A stretch of DNA of 64,000 bases from Verrucomicrobiota bacterium (GTDB lineage Bacteria > Verrucomicrobiota > Verrucomicrobiia > Verrucomicrobiales > DEV007), in NCBI GenBank assembly GCA_018970725.1, contig JAGWVU010000015.1:1-64000 (forward strand), read 5' to 3'. Both the position numbers and the translations under genes were made by a program. This document shows positions 18,198 to 28,058 of this stretch, one piece after another. The notes below the pieces were generated by a model that was not told the DNA's origin, made no database searches, and saw only the letters and a program-made list of their open reading frames with translations. Position 1 is the first letter of the stretch; each line of letters begins with the position of its first letter.

Positions 18198-19343
18198 TCA
18201 GCGCTCCGTGGAAACCGCGCGGCGCCCCTTCCATTCGGATTGGATGCCCCGGAGATGGCGCAAGAAGCCGGTCCACTGGATGGCCTCCATGAGAATGATC
18301 CCGAGCGGGTGCAGCAGGGCGCCGAACCATGACTGCCGGAAACGAACGGCGGCGACGAGGCGCTGGAAGTAGCCGAGTGCAGCGGCGGTGAGGAGGAGGC
18401 GGCGGGCGGTGAGGCCGATATCCGGGAGGCAGAGCAGGATCCAAGGAAGGACCTGACCCCCGATGAGAATCAGAGTCATGGGAACGATGACTCCCGGGGC
18501 GCCGAGGCCCTCGGCCGCGTTTTTGAGGAAACCGTTCCAGGTCTGCCGGGCCCCCTGATACATCCGGCAATGGGCCAGGCCGGATATGTCGACCAGATCA
18601 GTGAGGAAACCGTGTTTGCGCAGTTCCCGCGGCAGTTTCACGCCGTCGTGAAACGTGGCGCGGATGGCGGCATGACCTCCGGCGGTGAAATAGCTTTCCC
18701 GCTTCACCAGAACCAGTTGGCCCACGGCGGCGGCGAGCGATGGGCTCGGGCGGCGACGCATGATCCACAGCGGCAGGTAGCCGAGCAGGATGAAGTCGAT
18801 CAGCGGAACGAGGAGGCATTCCAACCAGCTGCCCGTGATTTGCCGGGGCACGCCGCTCACCATCGCGGGGCGGTGCGGCGCGGTCCGGGCGTAATCCACG
18901 AGTCGGCGCACCGCTTCCGGAGCGAGCCGGACGTCGGCGTCGAGGAAGAGCAGCCATTCTCCGTCGGCAGCCTCGGCGAGTTGTTGGCAGGCGAACATCT
19001 TGCCGGCCCAGCCCGGCGGAAGGGCGGCCCCCCGGAGGAGACGAAGCCGCGGGTCGGTCGCGGCCATTCGTTCCACGAGGACGGGCGTTTCATCGCTGGA
19101 ATGATCGTCCAGCACGAGGACTTCGAGCCCGGGCTCTCGGGAAACCAGCACGGATTCGACTACGGCGCGGATGTTCGCCGCTTCGTTGCGGGCTGGGATG
19201 AGGACGGAAACGGAGGAGGCGCTGGAGGTCGGCGTGGCTTCCGGTGCCTTGAACACGGTGAGGTTGATGAAAAAGACGACGGCGGGAAAGGCGGCCAGAT
19301 AGAGGAGGACGCCCGCGGTCAGGATCCAGGGATCGAGGTTCAA
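18198..19343 (-). CDS. Membrane glycosyltransferase of the C30 carotenoid operon (CrtQ-like)
   Basis: 381 residues. A GT2 domain follows an N-terminal membrane helix. It shows SVLIPARNEAANI, EVLVLDDHSSDET (first DxD region), a GWAGKMFACQQ segment and LLFLDADVRL. C-terminal membrane helices follow. The C-terminal EWKGRRAVSTER resembles the end of the staphylococcal glycosyltransferase CrtQ (EWKGR). CrtQ glucosylates diaponeurosporenoic acid in staphyloxanthin synthesis. HpnB-like enzymes are the closest alternative. The start overlaps the acyltransferase stop by 4 bp. It is the last gene of the operon. Confidence 0.78.
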   Translation of the reverse strand: MNLDPWILTAGVLLYLAAFPAVVFFINLTVFKAPEATPTSSASSVSVLIPARNEAANIRAVVESVLVSREPGLEVLVLDDHSSDETPVLVERMAATDPRLRLLRGAALPPGWAGKMFACQQLAEAADGEWLLFLDADVRLAPEAVRRLVDYARTAPHRPAMVSGVPRQITGSWLECLLVPLIDFILLGYLPLWIMRRRPSPSLAAAVGQLVLVKRESYFTAGGHAAIRATFHDGVKLPRELRKHGFLTDLVDISGLAHCRMYQGARQTWNGFLKNAAEGLGAPGVIVPMTLILIGGQVLPWILLCLPDIGLTARRLLLTAAALGYFQRLVAAVRFRQSWFGALLHPLGIILMEAIQWTGFLRHLRGIQSEWKGRRAVSTER

Positions 19344-20146
19344 CGGTTGCTATGGTGCAGGTTGATCGTTTTCCCGAGGGCAAACGATTTCAGGGACCGC
19401 CAGGCGTCATAGAAACCACCGATGCCGGCGGTGCCGGTCAGGAGGTTGTCAAAGGCTTCGGAGCGGCGGGCCATGGAGGCGGTGGCCAGCTGGTCCATGG
19501 CTTTTTCCAAGGACCGCTCGAGCCGGGCCAGCGTTTCCGGACGGGAATTTCCCGGCTCATGCGAGACGGCGGCTCCGGCGCAGAGGAGCAATTCCGGTTT
19601 GCTCTCCTCCCAAAAGGCGATTTCCATGGCGAGCGGGAGAAACACCGTTTCCGGGACCCGCGCGGCGAGGTGCGCGATGCCGCGTTGGAGGCGGACGGGC
19701 CGTTCCCGGACATCTGCGAAACGTCCTTGCGGCGTGAGAAAAAGGAGGGTGTCGGGACGGCGCAGGATCGTTTCGGCCTGATCAAGAAAGGAAGCGACTC
19801 CGCGGAGGGAATCGCGCTCCACGCCGAAGAACCCGAGGGATTTGAACAATCCGTAACGCTCCAACATCGCGGCGTCGATCGGGGCGTAGGCGTCGCGACC
19901 CGGGAAAAAAACCGGTTTGACGGCGAGGGCCACGAGCGGGTCCCACCAACTGGGATGGTTGCCGTAGATGACGAGGGGCAGATGGCGGGGGACGGTGAGG
20001 GAACCCTCCTTGAGCAGGCGGACGCGATGGAAATGCTTTCTCAGGCGGTTGGCGGCATAACGGCCGAACCACCGGGAAAACCACGGGTGGGGGGCCCGGA
20101 CGTTGGGGTCCGCGCGCATCGTATGCTGGGTCGGACTCCGGCTCAA
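19340..20146 (-). CDS. PlsC-like acyltransferase of the carotenoid operon
   Basis: 268 residues with the lysophospholipid-acyltransferase HX4D motif in YGNHPSWWDP (about residues 61-70) and the later FFGVERDS and FLTPQGRFAD segments. There is no signal peptide. In C30 carotenoid pathways an acyltransferase esterifies the sugar of the glycosylated carotenoic acid with a fatty acid. The position between crtP and the glycosyltransferase, with 4-bp overlaps on both sides, supports that role (inference). It is not closely similar to the staphylococcal CrtO as I recall it, so homology to that enzyme is not claimed. Confidence 0.78.
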   Translation of the reverse strand: MSRSPTQHTMRADPNVRAPHPWFSRWFGRYAANRLRKHFHRVRLLKEGSLTVPRHLPLVIYGNHPSWWDPLVALAVKPVFFPGRDAYAPIDAAMLERYGLFKSLGFFGVERDSLRGVASFLDQAETILRRPDTLLFLTPQGRFADVRERPVRLQRGIAHLAARVPETVFLPLAMEIAFWEESKPELLLCAGAAVSHEPGNSRPETLARLERSLEKAMDQLATASMARRSEAFDNLLTGTAGIGGFYDAWRSLKSFALGKTINLHHSNR

Positions 20147-21666
20147 GCGGCGGCCTCGGCCGGCTGATCCTTGTCGAGGGCATCCGCAGCGATCCAGCCG
20201 GACATCAGGACCATCGGCATGCCGGGACCGGGGTGGGCGGCGCCGCCACAGAGGTAGAGCCCTTGCAATTCCTTGCGCCGGTTGTTCGGTTTGAAGGCCC
20301 CGCGGAAGGTCCCGTGACTCGCCAAACCGTAGATGGCCCCGTTGAGGACATGGTAACGGTTGTGGATGTCGCGGGGCGTGAGGTGGCTCTCGCTGACGAT
20401 GCGGTCTTCGATGTCGCTAAGGCCGGCGGTCGACTTGAGTTTGTCCAGAATGATCTGGCGATACCCAGGCAACATCTTGGACCAGTCCTGATTGGGACGG
20501 AGATAAGGGGTGTGGACCAGAATGTAGAGGGCCTCGCCACCGGCCGGGGCCACGGCGGGCTCGGTCACGGCGGGGGCGCAGACATAGCAGGTAGGGTCCG
20601 GCGCCGGCTCGCCGTCCTCGTAGATGGCGTGGAATTCCTCGTCGGGATCCCGGGAGAAAACGAAGTTGTGGTGCAGCAGCTCGTCGTAGCGCTTGTTCAG
20701 CCCAAGGTAAAGGACCACCCCGGAACAGGCCGGCTCGTAGGGACGCGCTTTGTCGAAGTCGATCGACAGCGGGCCACCGATCAACTCGCGGAAGGTGCGC
20801 ACCGAATCGCAGTTGGAAACGACCCGTTGGAAGGCAGTGGTCCGGCCGTCGGCGGTGATCACCCCGGTGACGCGCTTGCCGTCATGGGCGATCTTTTCCA
20901 CCTTGGTGCCGAGCCGGAACTCGACGCCGAGTTCCCTCGCCAGTTTTTCCAGGGCCACGGGAACCGCCCGGGTTCCTCCCATGGGATACCAGACCCCTTC
21001 GGAGGTCTGCATGTGGGCGATGCCGCAAAGGATCGCGGGCGAAGCATCCGGCGAGGAGCCGACATACTGGGTGAAGTGATCGATCATCTGGGCGGCGCGT
21101 TCGTCGCCGATGAAGGAGCGGATGGAGGAGGCCACGGTCTGGCCCATGCGCATTTTGAGCAGGTCTTGCAACAGGCTGCGGTTGACCATGCCGCTGCTCC
21201 GGAAGACGTCCATAATGCCGCCGACCGGTTTCCAGAAGAAGAAGCGGTCGGAGATGCCGTGCAAGTCGCGCGACCAATCGATGAAGCGATTGTATTCCTC
21301 GGCGGCTTGAGGGTTGCCGGTGAATTCGTTGAGAGTTTGTCCCATGGCCTCGACTCCCTTGGTAAGGTCGAGCTTGTTGCCATCAGAGAAAAAACAACGC
21401 CATTGGGGGTCCAGTTCGACCAGATCGAGATGTTCCTCCAACTTCTTGCCCGCTTCCGCGTAGATGCGGCGCAGCACGGAGGGGATGGTCAGGATGGTCG
21501 GTCCCATGTCGAAGCGGAAGCCGTCTTTCTCGAGGACCGCCGCTTTGCCCCCGGCCCATTCGTTCCGCTCGAAGAGGGTCACCGCATGGCCACGGGCGGC
21601 CAATGTGCAGGCGGCTGCCAAACCGCCCAATCCTCCACCGATCACTGCTGTCTTCTCCTTGTTCAT
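20143..21666 (-). CDS. crtP: 4,4'-diaponeurosporene oxygenase-type carotenoid oxidase (CrtP-like)
   Basis: 507 residues of the phytoene-desaturase superfamily. An FAD-binding Rossmann motif GGGLGG is at residues 10-15. Segments typical of CrtP rather than CrtN are present: FDMGPTILTIPS, QWRCFFSDGNKLDL, YVGSSPDASPAIL, EPACSGVVLYLG, LLHHNFVFS, LNGAIYGLA and GPGMPMVLMSG. CrtP oxidises the terminal methyl group of a C30 carotenoid to an aldehyde. ATG 21666 overlaps the aldH stop by 4 bp. The assignment rests on remembered similarity to the staphylococcal enzyme; substrate specificity is inferred. Confidence 0.82.
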   Translation of the reverse strand: MNKEKTAVIGGGLGGLAAACTLAARGHAVTLFERNEWAGGKAAVLEKDGFRFDMGPTILTIPSVLRRIYAEAGKKLEEHLDLVELDPQWRCFFSDGNKLDLTKGVEAMGQTLNEFTGNPQAAEEYNRFIDWSRDLHGISDRFFFWKPVGGIMDVFRSSGMVNRSLLQDLLKMRMGQTVASSIRSFIGDERAAQMIDHFTQYVGSSPDASPAILCGIAHMQTSEGVWYPMGGTRAVPVALEKLARELGVEFRLGTKVEKIAHDGKRVTGVITADGRTTAFQRVVSNCDSVRTFRELIGGPLSIDFDKARPYEPACSGVVLYLGLNKRYDELLHHNFVFSRDPDEEFHAIYEDGEPAPDPTCYVCAPAVTEPAVAPAGGEALYILVHTPYLRPNQDWSKMLPGYRQIILDKLKSTAGLSDIEDRIVSESHLTPRDIHNRYHVLNGAIYGLASHGTFRGAFKPNNRRKELQGLYLCGGAAHPGPGMPMVLMSGWIAADALDKDQPAEAAA

Positions 21667-23117
21667 CCGTAATTCCTTGTCTGCTGGTTTGAGCGATCGC
21701 TCCGTCTCGTCTGCTTCAGGAGATACCCTAGGCTGCCGAGGCGTCCGATCAATCCGGTTCCGTGCAAAAGATTCACGAGGTGGGCGAAACGTTCCTCGTC
21801 GCCCGCCGCCGGCGCGTCGAGGTGCGGGAGCCAACCGTTCCCGCTCCGCCGGCTGATCACCCTCGGGCTTGTCATCTCCAAAAGGCCCTCCGCTCCGCGG
21901 GTCACCCCGAACCCGCTCCGTCCCCGGCCGCCAAAGGGCAGTCGCGGATCCGCCGTGGGCACGATGAGGTCGTTCACGGTCACGGATCCAGCGGGCAACC
22001 GGGCTGCGAAGGCGGCTCCCCTCCGCGCGTTCCGGCTGAAGACGGCGGCTCCCAAGGCGTAGGGGCAGGCTCGGTCCAGCTCGATCGACTCCTCCTCATC
22101 CGCGACTTCCCGGAAACAACAGATCGGCGCGAAATGATCGTCGTGGACGAGGCGAGAGTTAGTGGGCAGGTTTTCCAGAACCAGAGGATACCGAAAAATG
22201 CCCTCCGCGTCGCCCCAGGCTCCCGCCACAAGGCGCGCCCCTTCCCCAAGCGCTGCGTTGACTTCGGCGCGCACCCAGGGAAGCAATTCGGTCAACGGGG
22301 CCCGGCGGGAGCGGAAACGGTCCTGAAGGGCCGTGCGCATTCTCTGGGACACCCCGCGTTGCACCAGAAGGCGGCGGGGGGCGATGCAGGTCCGGCCCTG
22401 GTTCAGGGAGAGACCGTAAAGGATCAGGTCCGCTGCGCGCGCCGGATCCGCGTCGTCCAGGACATGCACCGCATCGACACCCGACAATTCCACCGTGGCG
22501 GGGACGATCGCTTCGGCACAGGTTTGCAGCACGGCCCGGCCGGTGGCGGTTCCCCCGGTCAGGATCACCTTGTCGACCCCCTGGCGGATCAGGTCGTGCA
22601 CGGCGGCGGGATCTTCCGGGAGCACCAGGCAGAGAGCTTCCGGCAGGCCCGCCTCGAGGAGCAGTTGGCGGAGCATCACAAGCGGCGCGGAGGCCCCCGG
22701 TGCCGGTTTGACCATGACGGCGTTCCCGGCCACCAAGGCTTGCAAAAGCTGGGATGCGGCGAGGAAGAGCGGGTAGTTGGACGGCGAAAGGATCAGGACC
22801 GTGCCGAATGGTTCCCGGCGGATTTCGGCGCGGACGCCACTCAGCCAAAGAGGGCGGTCCAGCAGCCCGGGCCGGCGCGGCGCGAGAATCTCCGCCGCCT
22901 CCTTTTCGAGGAAGCGGCACCCTTCGACCAAGGGAAGAATTTCGGTGGTGATGGCCTCGGAGGGATCGATGCCCCGGATCCGGGCGATGCCGGCGGCGAG
23001 CGGGCGGACCTGACCGACCAAGAGGGAGCGGAGCTGCACGATGACCCTCAAACGCTCGGGAACGGGAAGCTCCGCCCAGGCCCGCCGGGTTTGGGAAAGG
23101 GAGTCAGGGCCGGACAT
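21663..23117 (-). CDS. aldH: Carotenoid aldehyde dehydrogenase
   Basis: 484 residues of the aldehyde dehydrogenase superfamily. The NAD-binding LTGGTATGRAV is at 187-197, the catalytic glutamate is E210 (ATVELSGVD) and the nucleophile is C244 (NQGRTCIAP). The order and residues are complete, so it should be active. In C30 carotenoid pathways this enzyme oxidises the terminal aldehyde to a carboxylic acid before glycosylation. Between crtN and crtP it fits that step. It begins 15 bp after the crtN stop. Its last about 50 residues extend past the usual ALDH end. Confidence 0.85.
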   Translation of the reverse strand: MSGPDSLSQTRRAWAELPVPERLRVIVQLRSLLVGQVRPLAAGIARIRGIDPSEAITTEILPLVEGCRFLEKEAAEILAPRRPGLLDRPLWLSGVRAEIRREPFGTVLILSPSNYPLFLAASQLLQALVAGNAVMVKPAPGASAPLVMLRQLLLEAGLPEALCLVLPEDPAAVHDLIRQGVDKVILTGGTATGRAVLQTCAEAIVPATVELSGVDAVHVLDDADPARAADLILYGLSLNQGRTCIAPRRLLVQRGVSQRMRTALQDRFRSRRAPLTELLPWVRAEVNAALGEGARLVAGAWGDAEGIFRYPLVLENLPTNSRLVHDDHFAPICCFREVADEEESIELDRACPYALGAAVFSRNARRGAAFAARLPAGSVTVNDLIVPTADPRLPFGGRGRSGFGVTRGAEGLLEMTSPRVISRRSGNGWLPHLDAPAAGDEERFAHLVNLLHGTGLIGRLGSLGYLLKQTRRSDRSNQQTRNYG

Positions 23118-23132
23118 GATCGGAAGGCGGCC

Positions 23133-24662
23133 TCAGGCGGCCGCGGTTTGCAGCGAGGCGGTGGAAGGAAGGGGGGCCCCGTAATCGGAAGTCATGAGGT
23201 CGGCGGTGATCCGGGCGGATTCGAAGATCACCGGTAACCCGCTGCCGGGATGAGTCCCTCCTCCCACGAGATAGACGCCCTCGAGATCCTCAAACCGGTT
23301 TCTCGGCCGGAGGTGCAGCATCTGATCGAGACTGTGAGCCAGATTGAAAGTGGCGCCGCGGTGAATGTTGTATTGGGAATCCCAATCCGCCGGGGTGATG
23401 ACCCTTTCATAGCGGATGCGTTCTTCCACTCCGCTGAATCCGGCCAGAGCGAGCCGCTTGATCAGCATGTCGCGGAAGGGACCGGCCTCAGTCCTCCAGT
23501 CGATCGACCCGGTGTCGTGGGTCACCGGAGCGAGAATGTAAAGGGTGGAACCACCCGGCGGGGCCAGGGTCGGGTCCGTGACGGAAGCGTTTTGAACGTA
23601 GAACGACGGTCGTTTGCTCAGCACATGCCGGTGATCGATCTCCGCGAGATTCTCCTCGTAGTTTTCCGAAATGAAAATCGAGTGGTGCGGGAGATCGTAC
23701 TTTCCTTCGATCCCCAGATAGATCATGAAGGTGGAGCAGGAGAATTTCTTGGCGGCGATTTTCCGGTCGGACCACTTCCGGCGGAGGGCGTCCGGAACGA
23801 GGGAGGTCATGGCGCGCGCGAAATCCGCATTGATGACCAAGCCGTCGCAGCCGTAAGTCCCTTTCGGCGTCACCACGCCGGTTGCTTTCCGGCCTTGGAA
23901 GCGGAGCGATTCCACGGGCTCGCCGAGGTGGATCTCCACGCCCATCTCCCGCGCGATTCTCGCCAAAGCTTGGGAAATGGCGGCGCACCCCCCGATGGGA
24001 TGGAACACGCCGTGTTCGTATTCGAGAAACGAGAGGATCGAGAAGAGGCTCGGGCACCGGAAGGGCGACATCCCGAGGTATTTCGATTGGAAGCAGAAGG
24101 ACAACCGGATTCTCGGGTCCTTGAAGAATTTGCGGAGGTAGGTATCGACCGATTGGTGCGGGTTGAGTTGCGGCAAGGCGTCGAAGAGCCGCGGGTTCAA
24201 GAGATCCGACCAACCGCTGAACGGGCTCTCCAACACCGGGGCGAAGGTGGCCAGTTTCCGGCGGTTCTCGGACATGAACCGTTCAAAGCCGTCCGCGTCT
24301 TCCGGCGCGAGCCGGGCAATCTCCCGCTTCATCCTTTCCGGGTCGGGCGTGGCATCGACCTGACCACCTTCGCCAAACAGGATCCGGTATTGCGGGTCCA
24401 GTCTGCGCAGATCGACTTCCCGGTGCAAATCGCGACCCACCTCGGCGAGAATCTTTTGCAGGACCTGCGGGTAGAGGAAAAAGGTCGGCCCGAGATCGAA
24501 TGTGTAGGGACCGGCCTGAAGGCTGGAGGTGCGCCCGCCCACCACCGGCAGTCGTTCCACCACCCGGACGCGGAATCCCCGATGGGCCAGCAGGATGGCG
24601 GAGGCCAAACCGCCGGGACCAGCTCCGATGATGACGATGGATTTTTTTTCGGGGGAACTCAT
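23133..24662 (-). CDS. crtN: Diapophytoene/squalene desaturase (CrtN-like)
   Basis: 509 residues of the phytoene-desaturase superfamily with FAD motif GAGPGG at residues 13-18 and FDLGPTFFLYP, FHPIGGCAAISQALA, CSTFMIYLGIEGK, HHSIFISENYEENL and GGGTHPGSGLPVI. The SCS-FxxYLGI and following ISE/ENLAEI segments match CrtN better than CrtP. It would dehydrogenate a C30 precursor to diaponeurosporene or diapolycopene. The next downstream genes are aldH and crtP. No dehydrosqualene or squalene synthase gene is in this window. Confidence 0.83.
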   Translation of the reverse strand: MSSPEKKSIVIIGAGPGGLASAILLAHRGFRVRVVERLPVVGGRTSSLQAGPYTFDLGPTFFLYPQVLQKILAEVGRDLHREVDLRRLDPQYRILFGEGGQVDATPDPERMKREIARLAPEDADGFERFMSENRRKLATFAPVLESPFSGWSDLLNPRLFDALPQLNPHQSVDTYLRKFFKDPRIRLSFCFQSKYLGMSPFRCPSLFSILSFLEYEHGVFHPIGGCAAISQALARIAREMGVEIHLGEPVESLRFQGRKATGVVTPKGTYGCDGLVINADFARAMTSLVPDALRRKWSDRKIAAKKFSCSTFMIYLGIEGKYDLPHHSIFISENYEENLAEIDHRHVLSKRPSFYVQNASVTDPTLAPPGGSTLYILAPVTHDTGSIDWRTEAGPFRDMLIKRLALAGFSGVEERIRYERVITPADWDSQYNIHRGATFNLAHSLDQMLHLRPRNRFEDLEGVYLVGGGTHPGSGLPVIFESARITADLMTSDYGAPLPSTASLQTAAA

Positions 24663-24696: not shown

Positions 24697-25671
24697 TCAG
24701 ATGGAGATACCTTCGCTTTCCAAGACCCGGGACAAGGCTTCCTCAAGCAAAGCTCGTGCCCGGGCGGTTGCGCTGTGTAGGAAAGCATGGATTCGGGCAT
24801 CGTCCAGAGAACGGTTTTCACACTCCAAACTGTATTGCTCGAATGCAGTCAAGTCCGAGAGCAACTTCCCGAGATGCTGGGGACACTCGCACTGCACCGT
24901 GCTGGCAATGCGCGAGAGCCTCGCCAATTGCTCCCGGCTGTAGCGGCGGGGCGGAATCGCGGTGGCGGGCAGCCCGCCGTCCCCGGATGTCTTCGGCTCG
25001 GCCGCACCGATTGGTGACCGGACGGATTCGATCTCCGCCTTGGCAGCCAGGCGCAAGTCCGCAGGCCGGAGCGGGCCCCGGATCGCGGTGATGGCCGGTT
25101 GGGAGAGCAGCTGGCGCAACGTTTCCCGTTGGGCGAACCCGTAGACCAGAATCGCCCGACGCGCCCCGCAATCCCGGAGCAGGTCGGCGACCGCCCGGAT
25201 CGTTTCCGAAAACAGCGTCGGAGTGTCCACCACCAGAAGGTCCACCGGAGAAGACACCGGCGGGTGGGGAACGGAATCAAGGGACCCGTAATGCGCCAGC
25301 GGTTCCAAGTCCTCCAAATCCCGCTCCCGGGCGTGGAACATCCCGCGCAGGGCTTCGCCCACCACCAGCACGGAACATTTCCGGCCGCCGGGCGCCTGCG
25401 GGCCGAGCGCCGGGTCACCTGTCGCGCCCACCCTGTTCTCGAGCTGGTCGGCGCTCAGACCGGCCACCAGACCGATCGGGTTGCCTTCGTCGACCAACCG
25501 CTTCAGGTAGGTAAGTTTGCGAATGTCCTCGCGGCCGTAAAGCCTGCGCCCGGTTTCCGTCCGCTCCGGAGAGATCACCTTATAGCGCTTTTCCCAAGCA
25601 CGGATGGTGTGGACACTCAAACCGGTGGCGCGGGCCACTGAACTGATTTGATAACGCTCTTGCTTGATCAT
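24697..25671 (-). CDS. MerR-family regulator with degenerate Rossmann-like sensory domain
   Basis: 324 residues. An N-terminal MerR helix-turn-helix is at 7-70 (SSVARATGLSVHTIRAWEKR, GRRLYGREDI). A central alpha/beta domain spans about 95-210 (CSVLVVGEAL, VDLLVVDTPTLF, ARRAILVYGF). The C-terminal helical part has CECPQHLGKLLSDL and FEQYSLECENRS. The HTH is of the CarA/CarH/LitR type that controls carotenoid genes. The DxHxxG cobalamin-binding motif and the tryptophan of W-x9-EH are absent, so B12/light sensing as in CarH is unlikely. It probably regulates this operon through the 11-bp repeats. Confidence 0.82.
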   Translation of the reverse strand: MIKQERYQISSVARATGLSVHTIRAWEKRYKVISPERTETGRRLYGREDIRKLTYLKRLVDEGNPIGLVAGLSADQLENRVGATGDPALGPQAPGGRKCSVLVVGEALRGMFHARERDLEDLEPLAHYGSLDSVPHPPVSSPVDLLVVDTPTLFSETIRAVADLLRDCGARRAILVYGFAQRETLRQLLSQPAITAIRGPLRPADLRLAAKAEIESVRSPIGAAEPKTSGDGGLPATAIPPRRYSREQLARLSRIASTVQCECPQHLGKLLSDLTAFEQYSLECENRSLDDARIHAFLHSATARARALLEEALSRVLESEGISI

Positions 25672-25708
25672 CTTCTCAAGAAGGCCCCGGCGGAGGGGAC
25701 AGTGATTC

Positions 25709-25730
25709 TAGACAAAAACTCGACAACGGC
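25709..25730 (+). promoter_or_regulatory. Two tandem 11-bp direct repeats upstream of merR (putative MerR operator)
   Basis: TAGACAAAAAC (25709-25719) is followed directly by TCGACAACGGC (25720-25730) in the 66-bp gap between the SDR and merR genes. The units share T-M-GACAA and have the same spacing and orientation as those upstream of the sigma gene. Direct 11-bp repeats are the known binding geometry of CarH-type MerR proteins. Autoregulation of merR and crt transcription from here is an inference. Confidence 0.6.
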
Positions 25731-25737
25731 AACCAGA

Positions 25738-26454
25738 TCAGAGCTGGTGCGAAGCCGGTTGGAGAATGGTCTGCCCGAGAACCAGGTGGGAGGGCAGATC
25801 CAGGTCATCACAGATCCGGCGCGCCGCCACTTCCACCGGGATCATCTGGGTGCGGTCCACCCGCATCTCAATGGAGTCCCAGAACGGGGTATCGACCCCG
25901 CCGAAATGGTATAGAGAGAACTGGAGCTGATGCCTGCGGTATTCTTCAGCCGCCGCCTGGATCATCCCGGTCACCGCGTATTTGCTGGCGCAATACACCG
26001 TGGCCCCTTTCATCGGCCGCACGCCAAGGATCCCCGGGATGGTAACAAACCGGCCCTTTTTTGCCGGGGCCATGATCCGGCAGGCCTCCTTCAAAACGTG
26101 AAAGCAGCCGCGCACGTTGACGTTCATCACTTGGAGGAATTCCGGGCCTGCCACCTCCTCGAGGGGACGGATCAGGCCGACCCCAGCGCAGTGAATCACG
26201 GCATCGATCCCGCCGAATTCCGCTGCCGCGCCGTCGAAGAGTTCGCGCACGGCGGCAGGCTGGGTGATGTCGGCCGGTCGCGCCCAAACCCGGGAGGCCT
26301 GAACGCCGGATGCGACCCGGTCCAGCTTCTCCGGGTTCAAACCGGTCAAGGCGAGCGATTTGCCCCGCGAGGCGAGGAGTTCGGCGCAGGCCCGGCCGAT
26401 CCCGCTCCCAGCCCCGGTGAGGAGGATTCTGTTGAAGTCCCGGACGTCGCTCAT
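25738..26454 (-). CDS. SDR-family protein, catalytic serine not conserved
   Basis: 238 residues of the classical short-chain dehydrogenase fold. The cofactor loop TGAGSGIG is at 13-20, with ADI at 61-63, HCAG at 88-91, NVNVRG at 111-116 and YCASK at 154-158. The catalytic serine, normally 13 residues before the tyrosine, is glycine 141 (VTIPGILG). It may therefore bind NAD(P) without classical catalysis, or use another residue. The ATG overlaps the sigma stop by 4 bp, so it belongs to the sigma transcript. SDR genes next to ECF sigma factors are known from photooxidative-stress regulons in proteobacteria; a similar role here is inference. Confidence 0.8.
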   Translation of the reverse strand: MSDVRDFNRILLTGAGSGIGRACAELLASRGKSLALTGLNPEKLDRVASGVQASRVWARPADITQPAAVRELFDGAAAEFGGIDAVIHCAGVGLIRPLEEVAGPEFLQVMNVNVRGCFHVLKEACRIMAPAKKGRFVTIPGILGVRPMKGATVYCASKYAVTGMIQAAAEEYRRHQLQFSLYHFGGVDTPFWDSIEMRVDRTQMIPVEVAARRICDDLDLPSHLVLGQTILQPASHQL

Positions 26455-27050
26455 TCCAAGTCGCTGACAATGGTGCGGAGCCGGGTGATGCCGCGGCGGA
26501 TCCGGGCCTTGACCGTTCCGAGGGGGGCTCCGAGGGCCTCCGCGGCTTGGCTTTGAGACAGCCCTTTGAAGTAGGTCATTTCGATGACCTCGCGTTGCTC
26601 GGGCTTGAGACGCAGCAAGGCATCGCGGAGCACCAGGGACTCCTCCGACCGCCGCACCTCCTCGACGACTCCTTGGTCCGGACGAACCGTCTCCGGAACG
26701 TGTTCCATCTGGAGGTCGTCCCGCAACTGGGCGCGGCGTTGCTTGGAGCGAAGGCGGTCGATGGCCCGGTTGCGTGCCATGGTGGAAAGCCAGACCTGGG
26801 GTTTGCCACGACGCGGGTCGAAGAGTCGGCTCTTGTTCCAAACCCCCGAGAAGACCTCCTGAGCCACCTCCTCGGCGTCGTGGGGGTCATTCAAAACCCG
26901 GTAGGCGGTCGCGAAGACCAGGCCGGAAAATTTGCGGTGAAGTTTTTCGAAGGCCGAGCGATCCCCGGCCGCGATCCCCTCCATGAGAGGGGTATCATCG
27001 ATTTCCCCGTCCGGGGCGGTTTGGGAAGCGAATGCCAAGTCCATAATCAC
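26451..27050 (-). CDS. ECF sigma factor at the head of the carotenoid gene block
   Basis: 199 residues. Region 2 shows FEKLHRKFSGLVFATAYRVL, NDPHDAEEVAQEVFSGVWNK and QVWLSTMARNRAIDRLRSKQ. Region 4 shows LKPEQREVIEMTYFKGLSQS and LGAPLGTVKARIRRGITRLR. This is a SigK/RpoE-like ECF factor, unlike the 3672-4259 sigma. No anti-sigma gene is adjacent; the neighbours are an SDR and a MerR regulator. Placement upstream of the crt genes suggests it drives them, as the ECF factor LitS does in Streptomyces (established there, inferred here). Four 11-bp repeats lie in its promoter region. Confidence 0.88.
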   Translation of the reverse strand: MIMDLAFASQTAPDGEIDDTPLMEGIAAGDRSAFEKLHRKFSGLVFATAYRVLNDPHDAEEVAQEVFSGVWNKSRLFDPRRGKPQVWLSTMARNRAIDRLRSKQRRAQLRDDLQMEHVPETVRPDQGVVEEVRRSEESLVLRDALLRLKPEQREVIEMTYFKGLSQSQAAEALGAPLGTVKARIRRGITRLRTIVSDLE

Positions 27051-27087
27051 TTCCTCGTCTCGCGTCTAATCGTTGTCGATAAAAATT

Positions 27088-27131
27088 TAGACATTTATCC
27101 GATAAATAATAGACAAGAACTAGACAATGAT
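27088..27131 (+). promoter_or_regulatory. Four tandem 11-bp units upstream of the ECF sigma gene (putative MerR operator)
   Basis: TAGACATTTAT (27088), CCGATAAATAA (27099), TAGACAAGAAC (27110) and TAGACAATGAT (27121) follow each other with exact 11-bp periodicity, one helical turn. Three begin with TAGACA. Overlapping them, ATTTATC-C-GATAAAT (27093-27107) is a perfect inverted repeat. The region is AT-rich against GC-rich surroundings and lies 38-81 bp upstream of the sigma start, where its promoter should be. The divergent MYG1 gene starts 43 bp to the right and may be affected. Confidence 0.65.
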
Positions 27132-27173
27132 CTCATTTGCCTTCCGCGTTCCCCGGGTTTCCTTGGGATCATC

Positions 27174-28058
27174 ATGACCGAGCCTGTCTCCCGCATCGTG
27201 ACCCATCCGGGCGGTGCCCATAAGGACGAATTCTTGGCCTGTTGCCTCGAGCTTGTTTTTTCTCCGGTGGAAATCTGCCGCCGTGAACCGTCCCGCGAGG
27301 ATCTGGACGATCCGGCCGTGTGCGTGCTGGATGTGGGGGGCGAGCATGATCCCGCGCGCCGGAATTTTGATCACCACCAATTCGAGAGGGATCACCCGCC
27401 GGTCTGTGCCCTGAGTCTGCTCCTTCAGGCGCATGGATTGTATGAGGACGCCCTCTCCTTTTGCGAGTGGTTGGAAACGACCGAGTGGTTGGATGCCCGG
27501 GGTCCCGTGGCGACGGCGGATTATCTGGGAATCGGGCGCGAGGTTTTGTCCAAGTTGAATTCCACGATCGATTTGACCCTGCTGCGCCGCTTCAGCCAAG
27601 TCCCGGTGGTGCGGCCGGGAGAACCGCTCTGGGAGGTGATGCGCTGGATCGGGAGCGACCTGGTTGCCTATCTCACCTGTCTCCGGGATCGGTTGGGGGC
27701 TTTGTCCGAGACCGTCGAGTTCTGGGAATTGGAGACTTCGGACGGGGAAAGGTTCGAGGCGGTTTTCCTGCCGAGAACCGAGTCCATGCCGACAGATCCT
27801 TCGTTCGGGATCGAACGCTTTGTCGTGGAGCAGGGGGCGCAAGACCGAATTTTGGCGTTGGTCTATCCGGATCGTCGAGGAGAGGGCTATGGAATGTCGA
27901 GGTTTCGCGACACCGCCTTGCTCAATTTTGCGCCGCTGGAGCGGGAGACGGATGTGCACTTTGCGCACAAGCAGGGTTTTGTGGCCAAGACGACGTCCAC
28001 GGATCCGGAGCGCTTGCGGGAATTGTTGGTTCTGGCCCGCGGATTTGCCCGTGGTTGA
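27174..28058 (+). CDS. MYG1 family protein (putative DHH-type exonuclease)
   Basis: 294 residues. It shows the family's start THPGGAHKDEFLACCLELVF, VLDVGGEHDPARRNFDHHQF (the DHH motif) and the C-terminal HFAHKQGFVAKTT. MYG1 proteins have a DHH-superfamily nuclease fold; the eukaryotic member is an RNA exonuclease. The bacterial role is unestablished. The metal-ligand residues of the DHH motif are intact. The ATG was chosen because the family homology begins there; a weak GGGA lies upstream. It diverges from the carotenoid regulatory genes and is followed by a strong hairpin. Confidence 0.85.
   Translation: MTEPVSRIVTHPGGAHKDEFLACCLELVFSPVEICRREPSREDLDDPAVCVLDVGGEHDPARRNFDHHQFERDHPPVCALSLLLQAHGLYEDALSFCEWLETTEWLDARGPVATADYLGIGREVLSKLNSTIDLTLLRRFSQVPVVRPGEPLWEVMRWIGSDLVAYLTCLRDRLGALSETVEFWELETSDGERFEAVFLPRTESMPTDPSFGIERFVVEQGAQDRILALVYPDRRGEGYGMSRFRDTALLNFAPLERETDVHFAHKQGFVAKTTSTDPERLRELLVLARGFARG

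Follow-up and report, generated by a model that had tools for sequence, protein, structure and literature searches.

The 11-bp repeats found at two places in the carotenoid operon of this Verrucomicrobiota genome are, judging from sequence comparison, very probably two operators for the operon's own MerR protein, a B12-free member of the LitR/CarH family that would repress both the sigma-SDR and the merR-crt genes. The repeats, their spacing, their conservation, their linkage to LitR/CarH-family genes and the absence of a B12 domain in the regulator were all computed directly. The window (the whole stretch of DNA that was analysed, 64,000 nucleotides) holds the repeats in two non-coding gaps, sigma-MYG1 and SDR-merR. 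The relevant features are the following:

18198–19343, − strand: family 2 glycosyltransferase gene
19340–20146, − strand: acyltransferase gene
20143–21666, − strand: gene for a second CrtI/CrtN-family desaturase/oxidase
21663–23117, − strand: aldehyde dehydrogenase gene
23133–24662, − strand: gene for a CrtI/CrtN-family carotenoid desaturase/oxidase
24697–25671, − strand: merR, coding for a LitR/CarH-type HTH, a CheY-like pseudo-receiver and a C-terminal helical domain with CxCP-H-C-H
25705–25732, − strand: sigma-70-like promoter for merR, TTGCCG-N16-TAGAAT, with spacer and −10 covered by the merR repeats
25709–25730, + strand: tandem pair TAGACAAAAAC (25709) and TCGACAACGGC (25720), upstream of merR
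25738–26454, − strand: short-chain dehydrogenase (SDR) gene, its start overlapping the sigma stop codon
26451–27044, − strand: ECF RNA polymerase sigma factor gene, ATG at 27044
27063–27079, − strand: TCGACA-N5-TAGACG, a pair spaced by 11 bp, putative operator element 2, kept in both congeners
27088–27098, + strand: unit TAGACATTTAT, third TAGACA unit of the sigma-side operator, read from the sequence
27099–27109, + strand: CCGATAAATAA, unit 2 of the initial annotation, lacking a TnnACA core and varying in length among congeners (filler)
27110–27131, + strand: tandem pair TAGACAAGAAC (27110) and TAGACAATGAT (27121), upstream of the ECF sigma gene, putative operator element 1

We take the gene set of the block to resemble a staphyloxanthin-type C30 pathway; no synthase gene was found in the block. 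A MYG1-family gene (27174–28058, + strand) diverges from the sigma gene, and could also be affected since the sigma-side repeats sit upstream of it on its sense strand.

Repeat units and promoters

The six 11-bp units described in the initial annotation were read back from the sequence at both sites, and all lie on the + strand, confirming their common orientation, with the operon genes on the opposite (−) strand. The genome-wide pattern search points to the same two places. With at most one mismatch, TAGACA-N5-TAGACA has only two matches in the 4.9 Mb genome, at 27110 and 25709, both in the carotenoid operon (the backwards-pattern control gave 3 matches); its exact form occurs once, as the pair at 27110–27131. 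The exact pattern TNGACA-N5-TNGACA has 5 genome matches, 2 of them in the carotenoid operon, and none for the control. In the window, 4 matches to TAGACA-N5-TAGACA with up to two mismatches were found against 0.37 expected, a number reached by none of 100 composition-preserving shuffles. The intergenic DNA carrying the repeats is AT-rich (41% GC, compared with 64% for the window), as would suit repeats arising by chance in promoter DNA, but the shuffles, the specificity of the spacing and the conservation contradict such an origin, whose probability we regard as negligible. The units are tandem 11-bp direct repeats with a TnnACA core, and both unit and spacing agree with the published CarH operator, nnnnTnnACAn in tandem (PMC9304148; PMC8156234), which bears out the geometry initially proposed. 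This equality with a repeat that has been footprinted for CarH (PMC9304148) counts in favour of the MerR-operator reading.

Two congeners (L003 and L004, the same loci as G385 and G384) keep the gene order MYG1, sigma, SDR, merR, crt as well as both operators. Across the three genomes, 27 of 30 unit bases are identical at the sigma site, compared with 17 of 47 outside the units (p 2e-6); at the merR site, which reads TAGACA-N5-TAGACA in both congeners, the corresponding values are 11/12 and 15/41 (p 8e-4). The 11-bp spacing of the 27110/27121 pair is unchanged, while its distance from the 27088 unit varies between the three congeners (22, 21 and 20 bp). Because the gap it fills varies in this way, CCGATAAATAA is not a maintained unit. 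The initial annotation had placed four contiguous units at the sigma gene; the three TAGACA units stand, whereas its unit 2 does not, and four contiguous repeats are ruled out by the floating of the third TAGACA unit. The − strand also holds a conserved pair that had been overlooked, TCGACA-N5-TAGACG (27079 to 27063). The 27088 unit is separated from the unit at 27074–27079 by an invariant gap of 8 bp, in the inverted arrangement TGTCTA-N8-TCGACA on the − strand, and the element of invariant spacing across the congeners, which includes the 27088 unit, reads TGTCTA-N8-T(C/G)GACA-N5-TAGACG on the sense strand. In place of four contiguous repeats, the predicted sigma operator (27063–27131) consists of a tandem pair and an inverted element.

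TTGCCG-N16-TAGAAT, whose hexamers are partly conserved in both congeners, is the only sigma-70-like promoter match in 25600–27250, a search that found no promoter for the sigma gene. Filling the spacer of this promoter and touching its −10, the merR repeats suit a repressor. An alternative is that the TGTCTA elements of the sense strand are not MerR sites but the −35 and −10 of autoregulated promoters dependent on the ECF sigma factor, since such elements can contain TGTC or CGTC and the sense strand reads TTGTCTA ahead of the ECF sigma gene. An exact 11-bp spacing is however unlike a −35/−10 pair, the sites agree with the footprinted CarH repeat, a separate sigma-70-like promoter spans the repeats at merR, and three loci (L106, L115 and L150) have this tandem in front of B12-type CarH genes although the stretch examined there holds no such sigma gene, which makes the promoter interpretation unlikely.

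Domains of the regulator

In the MerR protein (P0001), a MerR DNA-binding domain is followed by a CheY-like pseudo-receiver and then by a helical domain in which CxCP-H-C-H is invariant. Its HTH has CarH as best NCBIfam match (residues 3–64) and its best PDB matches are Thermus CarH, so that the winged-helix DNA-binding domain is of the CarH type. This likeness, together with an operator that agrees, could make the protein a classical AdoCbl-dependent CarH photoreceptor. Against this, the middle domain matches CheY-like receivers, no Pfam B12-binding domain was detected and the motifs Wx9EH and ExHx2G (the E/DxHx2G motif of CarH) are both absent, while these tests do pick out true B12 types in relatives: L105, L106 and L115 match PF02310 and PF02607 and contain Wx9EH. 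The B12-binding_2 four-helix domain of class II LitR gave no match either, whereas the B12 types do match it. A classical B12 CarH is rejected by these domain and motif tests with their positive controls, and we regard it as very improbable. Since it lacks a B12 domain despite its CarH-type DNA-binding domain, the operon's MerR is not CarH itself. The proposal that the repeats are operators of a CarH-type MerR is supported by the motif, its conservation and its linkage to LitR/CarH-family genes, with a qualification as to the regulator.

The AlphaFold model (mean pLDDT 82.5, pTM 0.43) contains the HTH, a CheY-like fold at 96–220 (Z about 12) and C-terminal helices, with a domain placement that is uncertain given the pTM. 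The phosphoacceptor position of the receiver, read by eye from the alignment, is not conserved, hence the name pseudo-receiver. The invariant C-terminal residues are C261, C263, H266, C284 and H295. No solved relative of the C-terminal helical domain was found in structure searches, a result of little weight as these were dominated by the receiver and HTH parts. At the level of DNA patterns, the genome (96.5% complete) holds no NCRFLQ LOV motif that would indicate a short LOV partner as in class II LitR.

The sensor module also occurs on its own. Four loci (L141, L142, L143 and L144) code for proteins of about 250–270 aa with the pseudo-receiver and the CxCP-H-C-H domain and no HTH. In L143 (1495–2994, G408:C3) and L144 an ECF sigma gene precedes the match to this HTH-less module and has the same orientation, the order in L143 being a fasciclin-like gene, sigma, then the module; by analogy, the arrangement is like that of a sigma/anti-sigma pair. 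We tentatively consider that the module could be a distinct non-B12 light or redox sensor that evolution swaps with the B12 domain while DNA-binding domain and operator stay the same, with an anti-sigma-like HTH-less form, although we think this somewhat doubtful. If true, the target of the HTH-less module would be sigma itself, with the module as an anti-sigma-like partner. Stand-alone proteins of about 100–120 aa in L063 (7842–8201) and L064 (7548–7853) carry a QCACPAQV...C motif resembling the C-terminal domain, and matched no Pfam family.

Operators and regulators in related genomes

As the initial annotation had suggested, the motif was searched for in the genome and its relatives, most of which are metagenome-assembled; relatives with the operon keep the repeats, whose loss there would have refuted the proposal, and at other loci exact tandems are concentrated around LitR/CarH-family genes. 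Of 28 orthologous merR genes (Verrucomicrobiota and Proteobacteria), 12 are preceded by a TnnACA tandem with 11-bp spacing (counts that are not independent events, as related genomes are included), against at most 2 for every other spacing from 6 to 30 and a mean of 0.17 (maximum 2 in 500) for dinucleotide shuffles. Measured from TNGACA to the next NNGACA in 12 Verrucomicrobiota intergenic regions, 14 pairs have a distance of +11, and other positive distances occur at most once each. Some gammaproteobacterial loci have TATACA units with the same 11-bp spacing. The spectrum of motifs is a different one in Burkholderia. No tandem TnnACA was found in the Burkholderia/Trinickia ortholog loci and no 11-bp tandem was seen in several Verrucomicrobiota orthologs, which counts against the MerR-operator reading, as do the repeat strand being opposite to the genes and the sigma gene having no located promoter. 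In four loci where merR and sigma are divergent (L005, L006, L008 and L012), a T(A/C)GACA-N5-NNGACA pair lies a few bases from the start codon of merR, and L005, L008 and L012 have another such pair near that of sigma. Pairs so near to the start codons suggest autoregulation.

Exact TAGACA tandems are present in 16 of the 33 relatives with a LitR/CarH gene and in 3 of the 24 without (p 0.004; 57 relatives, cross-table compiled by hand from search outputs). Ten of 27 exact sites are at most 200 bp from a LitR/CarH gene and 4 more adjoin a related sigma gene. This clustering is difficult to reconcile with the operators being read by another regulator, either an unlinked factor or the second MerR protein of the genome; only one other MerR_1 protein is encoded there (a 226-aa frame), and the operon's MerR is the only LitR/CarH-like protein found, and we consider a different reader improbable. 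B12-type CarH loci of the same class have 11-bp tandems in 18/22 and 6/8 cases (two sets overlapping by a few loci), and because these loci carry an identical tandem, it is probably read by the DNA-binding domain that both regulator types share.

Two other genomes (G392 and G340) have orthologous crt genes (69% and 66% identity) beside a Pfam-confirmed B12-type CarH, and TAGACA tandems precede them. The three operons of the genus group together in the desaturase tree (100/100), inside a clade (99/97) in which the other members with a linked regulator are of the B12 type; L105 is sister to the genus at 92/94, followed by L106. Since the nearest regulator-linked crt operons in other genera combine B12-type CarH with TAGACA tandems, the sensor would have changed and the operator been kept. 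A B12-type regulator of the operon thus appears, from these sequences, to have been replaced by the Cys/His type with the operators retained, a direction that rests on two B12-type neighbours and on moderate support for the inner fork. G392 (C138 and C18) holds both types, the B12 type at the crt operon and the Cys/His type beside another sigma gene.

Predicted mode of action and known systems

We infer MerR binding, repression, the signal and a role for the conserved Cys/His residues from the above. Several MerR protomers would most likely bind successive TnnACA units on one DNA face, as CarH does, at the putative operator inside the merR promoter (25709–25730, spacer and −10) and at that upstream of the ECF sigma gene (27063–27131). 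In the uninduced state, MerR at both sites would repress the sigma-SDR transcript as well as merR and the crt genes that follow it. Release of the repressor would come from a signal, probably light or photo-oxidative stress due to light, acting on the C-terminal sensor (pseudo-receiver and CxCP-H-C-H helical domain), so that sigma and the C30-type carotenoid genes would be switched on together; light is inferred by analogy with other LitR clusters. In orthologous carotenoid operons of one order, the same 11-bp operators are apparently run by two repressor types, one B12-based and one not, the conserved core being the DNA-binding domain with its operator, and the exchangeable part the sensor. 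The five invariant Cys/His residues, common to Burkholderia homologs, offer a mutational handle on the chromophore of B12-free LitR proteins.

With CarH (class I LitR; Thermus, Bacillus megaterium, myxobacteria) the operon shares tandem 11-bp direct repeats with TnnACA cores at carotenoid promoters, operators of three or four units in which degenerate ones are allowed, and a CarH-like MerR DNA-binding domain. It differs in the missing B12 domain of the regulator, in an ECF sigma gene among the targets, in the extra inverted element of the sigma operator and in repeats that run opposite to the genes, whereas in myxobacteria the −35 is carried by CarH repeats of the sense strand (PMC9304148). 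CarA of Myxococcus xanthus is likewise a B12-independent family member on the same operator type as CarH, but it keeps the canonical B12-binding motif (without Wx9EH) and is undone by CarS, while the sensor domains of the operon's MerR are different.

Class III LitR of Burkholderia, as described in two later papers (PMC9758184, PMC6739363), shares the MerR HTH and a C-terminus unlike B12 domains, and the purified protein is described there as changing its absorption with light (PMC9758184). Full-length homologs in Burkholderia anthina/arboris and Trinickia have all three domains of the operon's MerR, and a full-length Burkholderia homolog (L072), which lies in a photolyase/FolE/CFA synthase/sigma cluster, has the same CECPxH...FExYSxxC...LH residues as the operon's MerR. 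The full-length homolog on a B. anthina plasmid, which also has the invariant Cys/His residues, lies among photolyase, GTP cyclohydrolase I (FolE), CFA synthase, SDR and sigma genes, which resembles the setting reported for B12-free (class III) LitR light clusters. The present case differs in being a carotenoid operon in Verrucomicrobiota with predicted control via 11-bp tandems, and no such tandem lies near the Burkholderia homolog. The class II LitR proteins PmlR2/PplR1 of Pseudomonas, which work with short LOV proteins, are also B12-free LitR repressors near light-response genes, but their site, T(G/A)TACA-N12-TGTACA, is unlike the 11-bp tandems of the operon.
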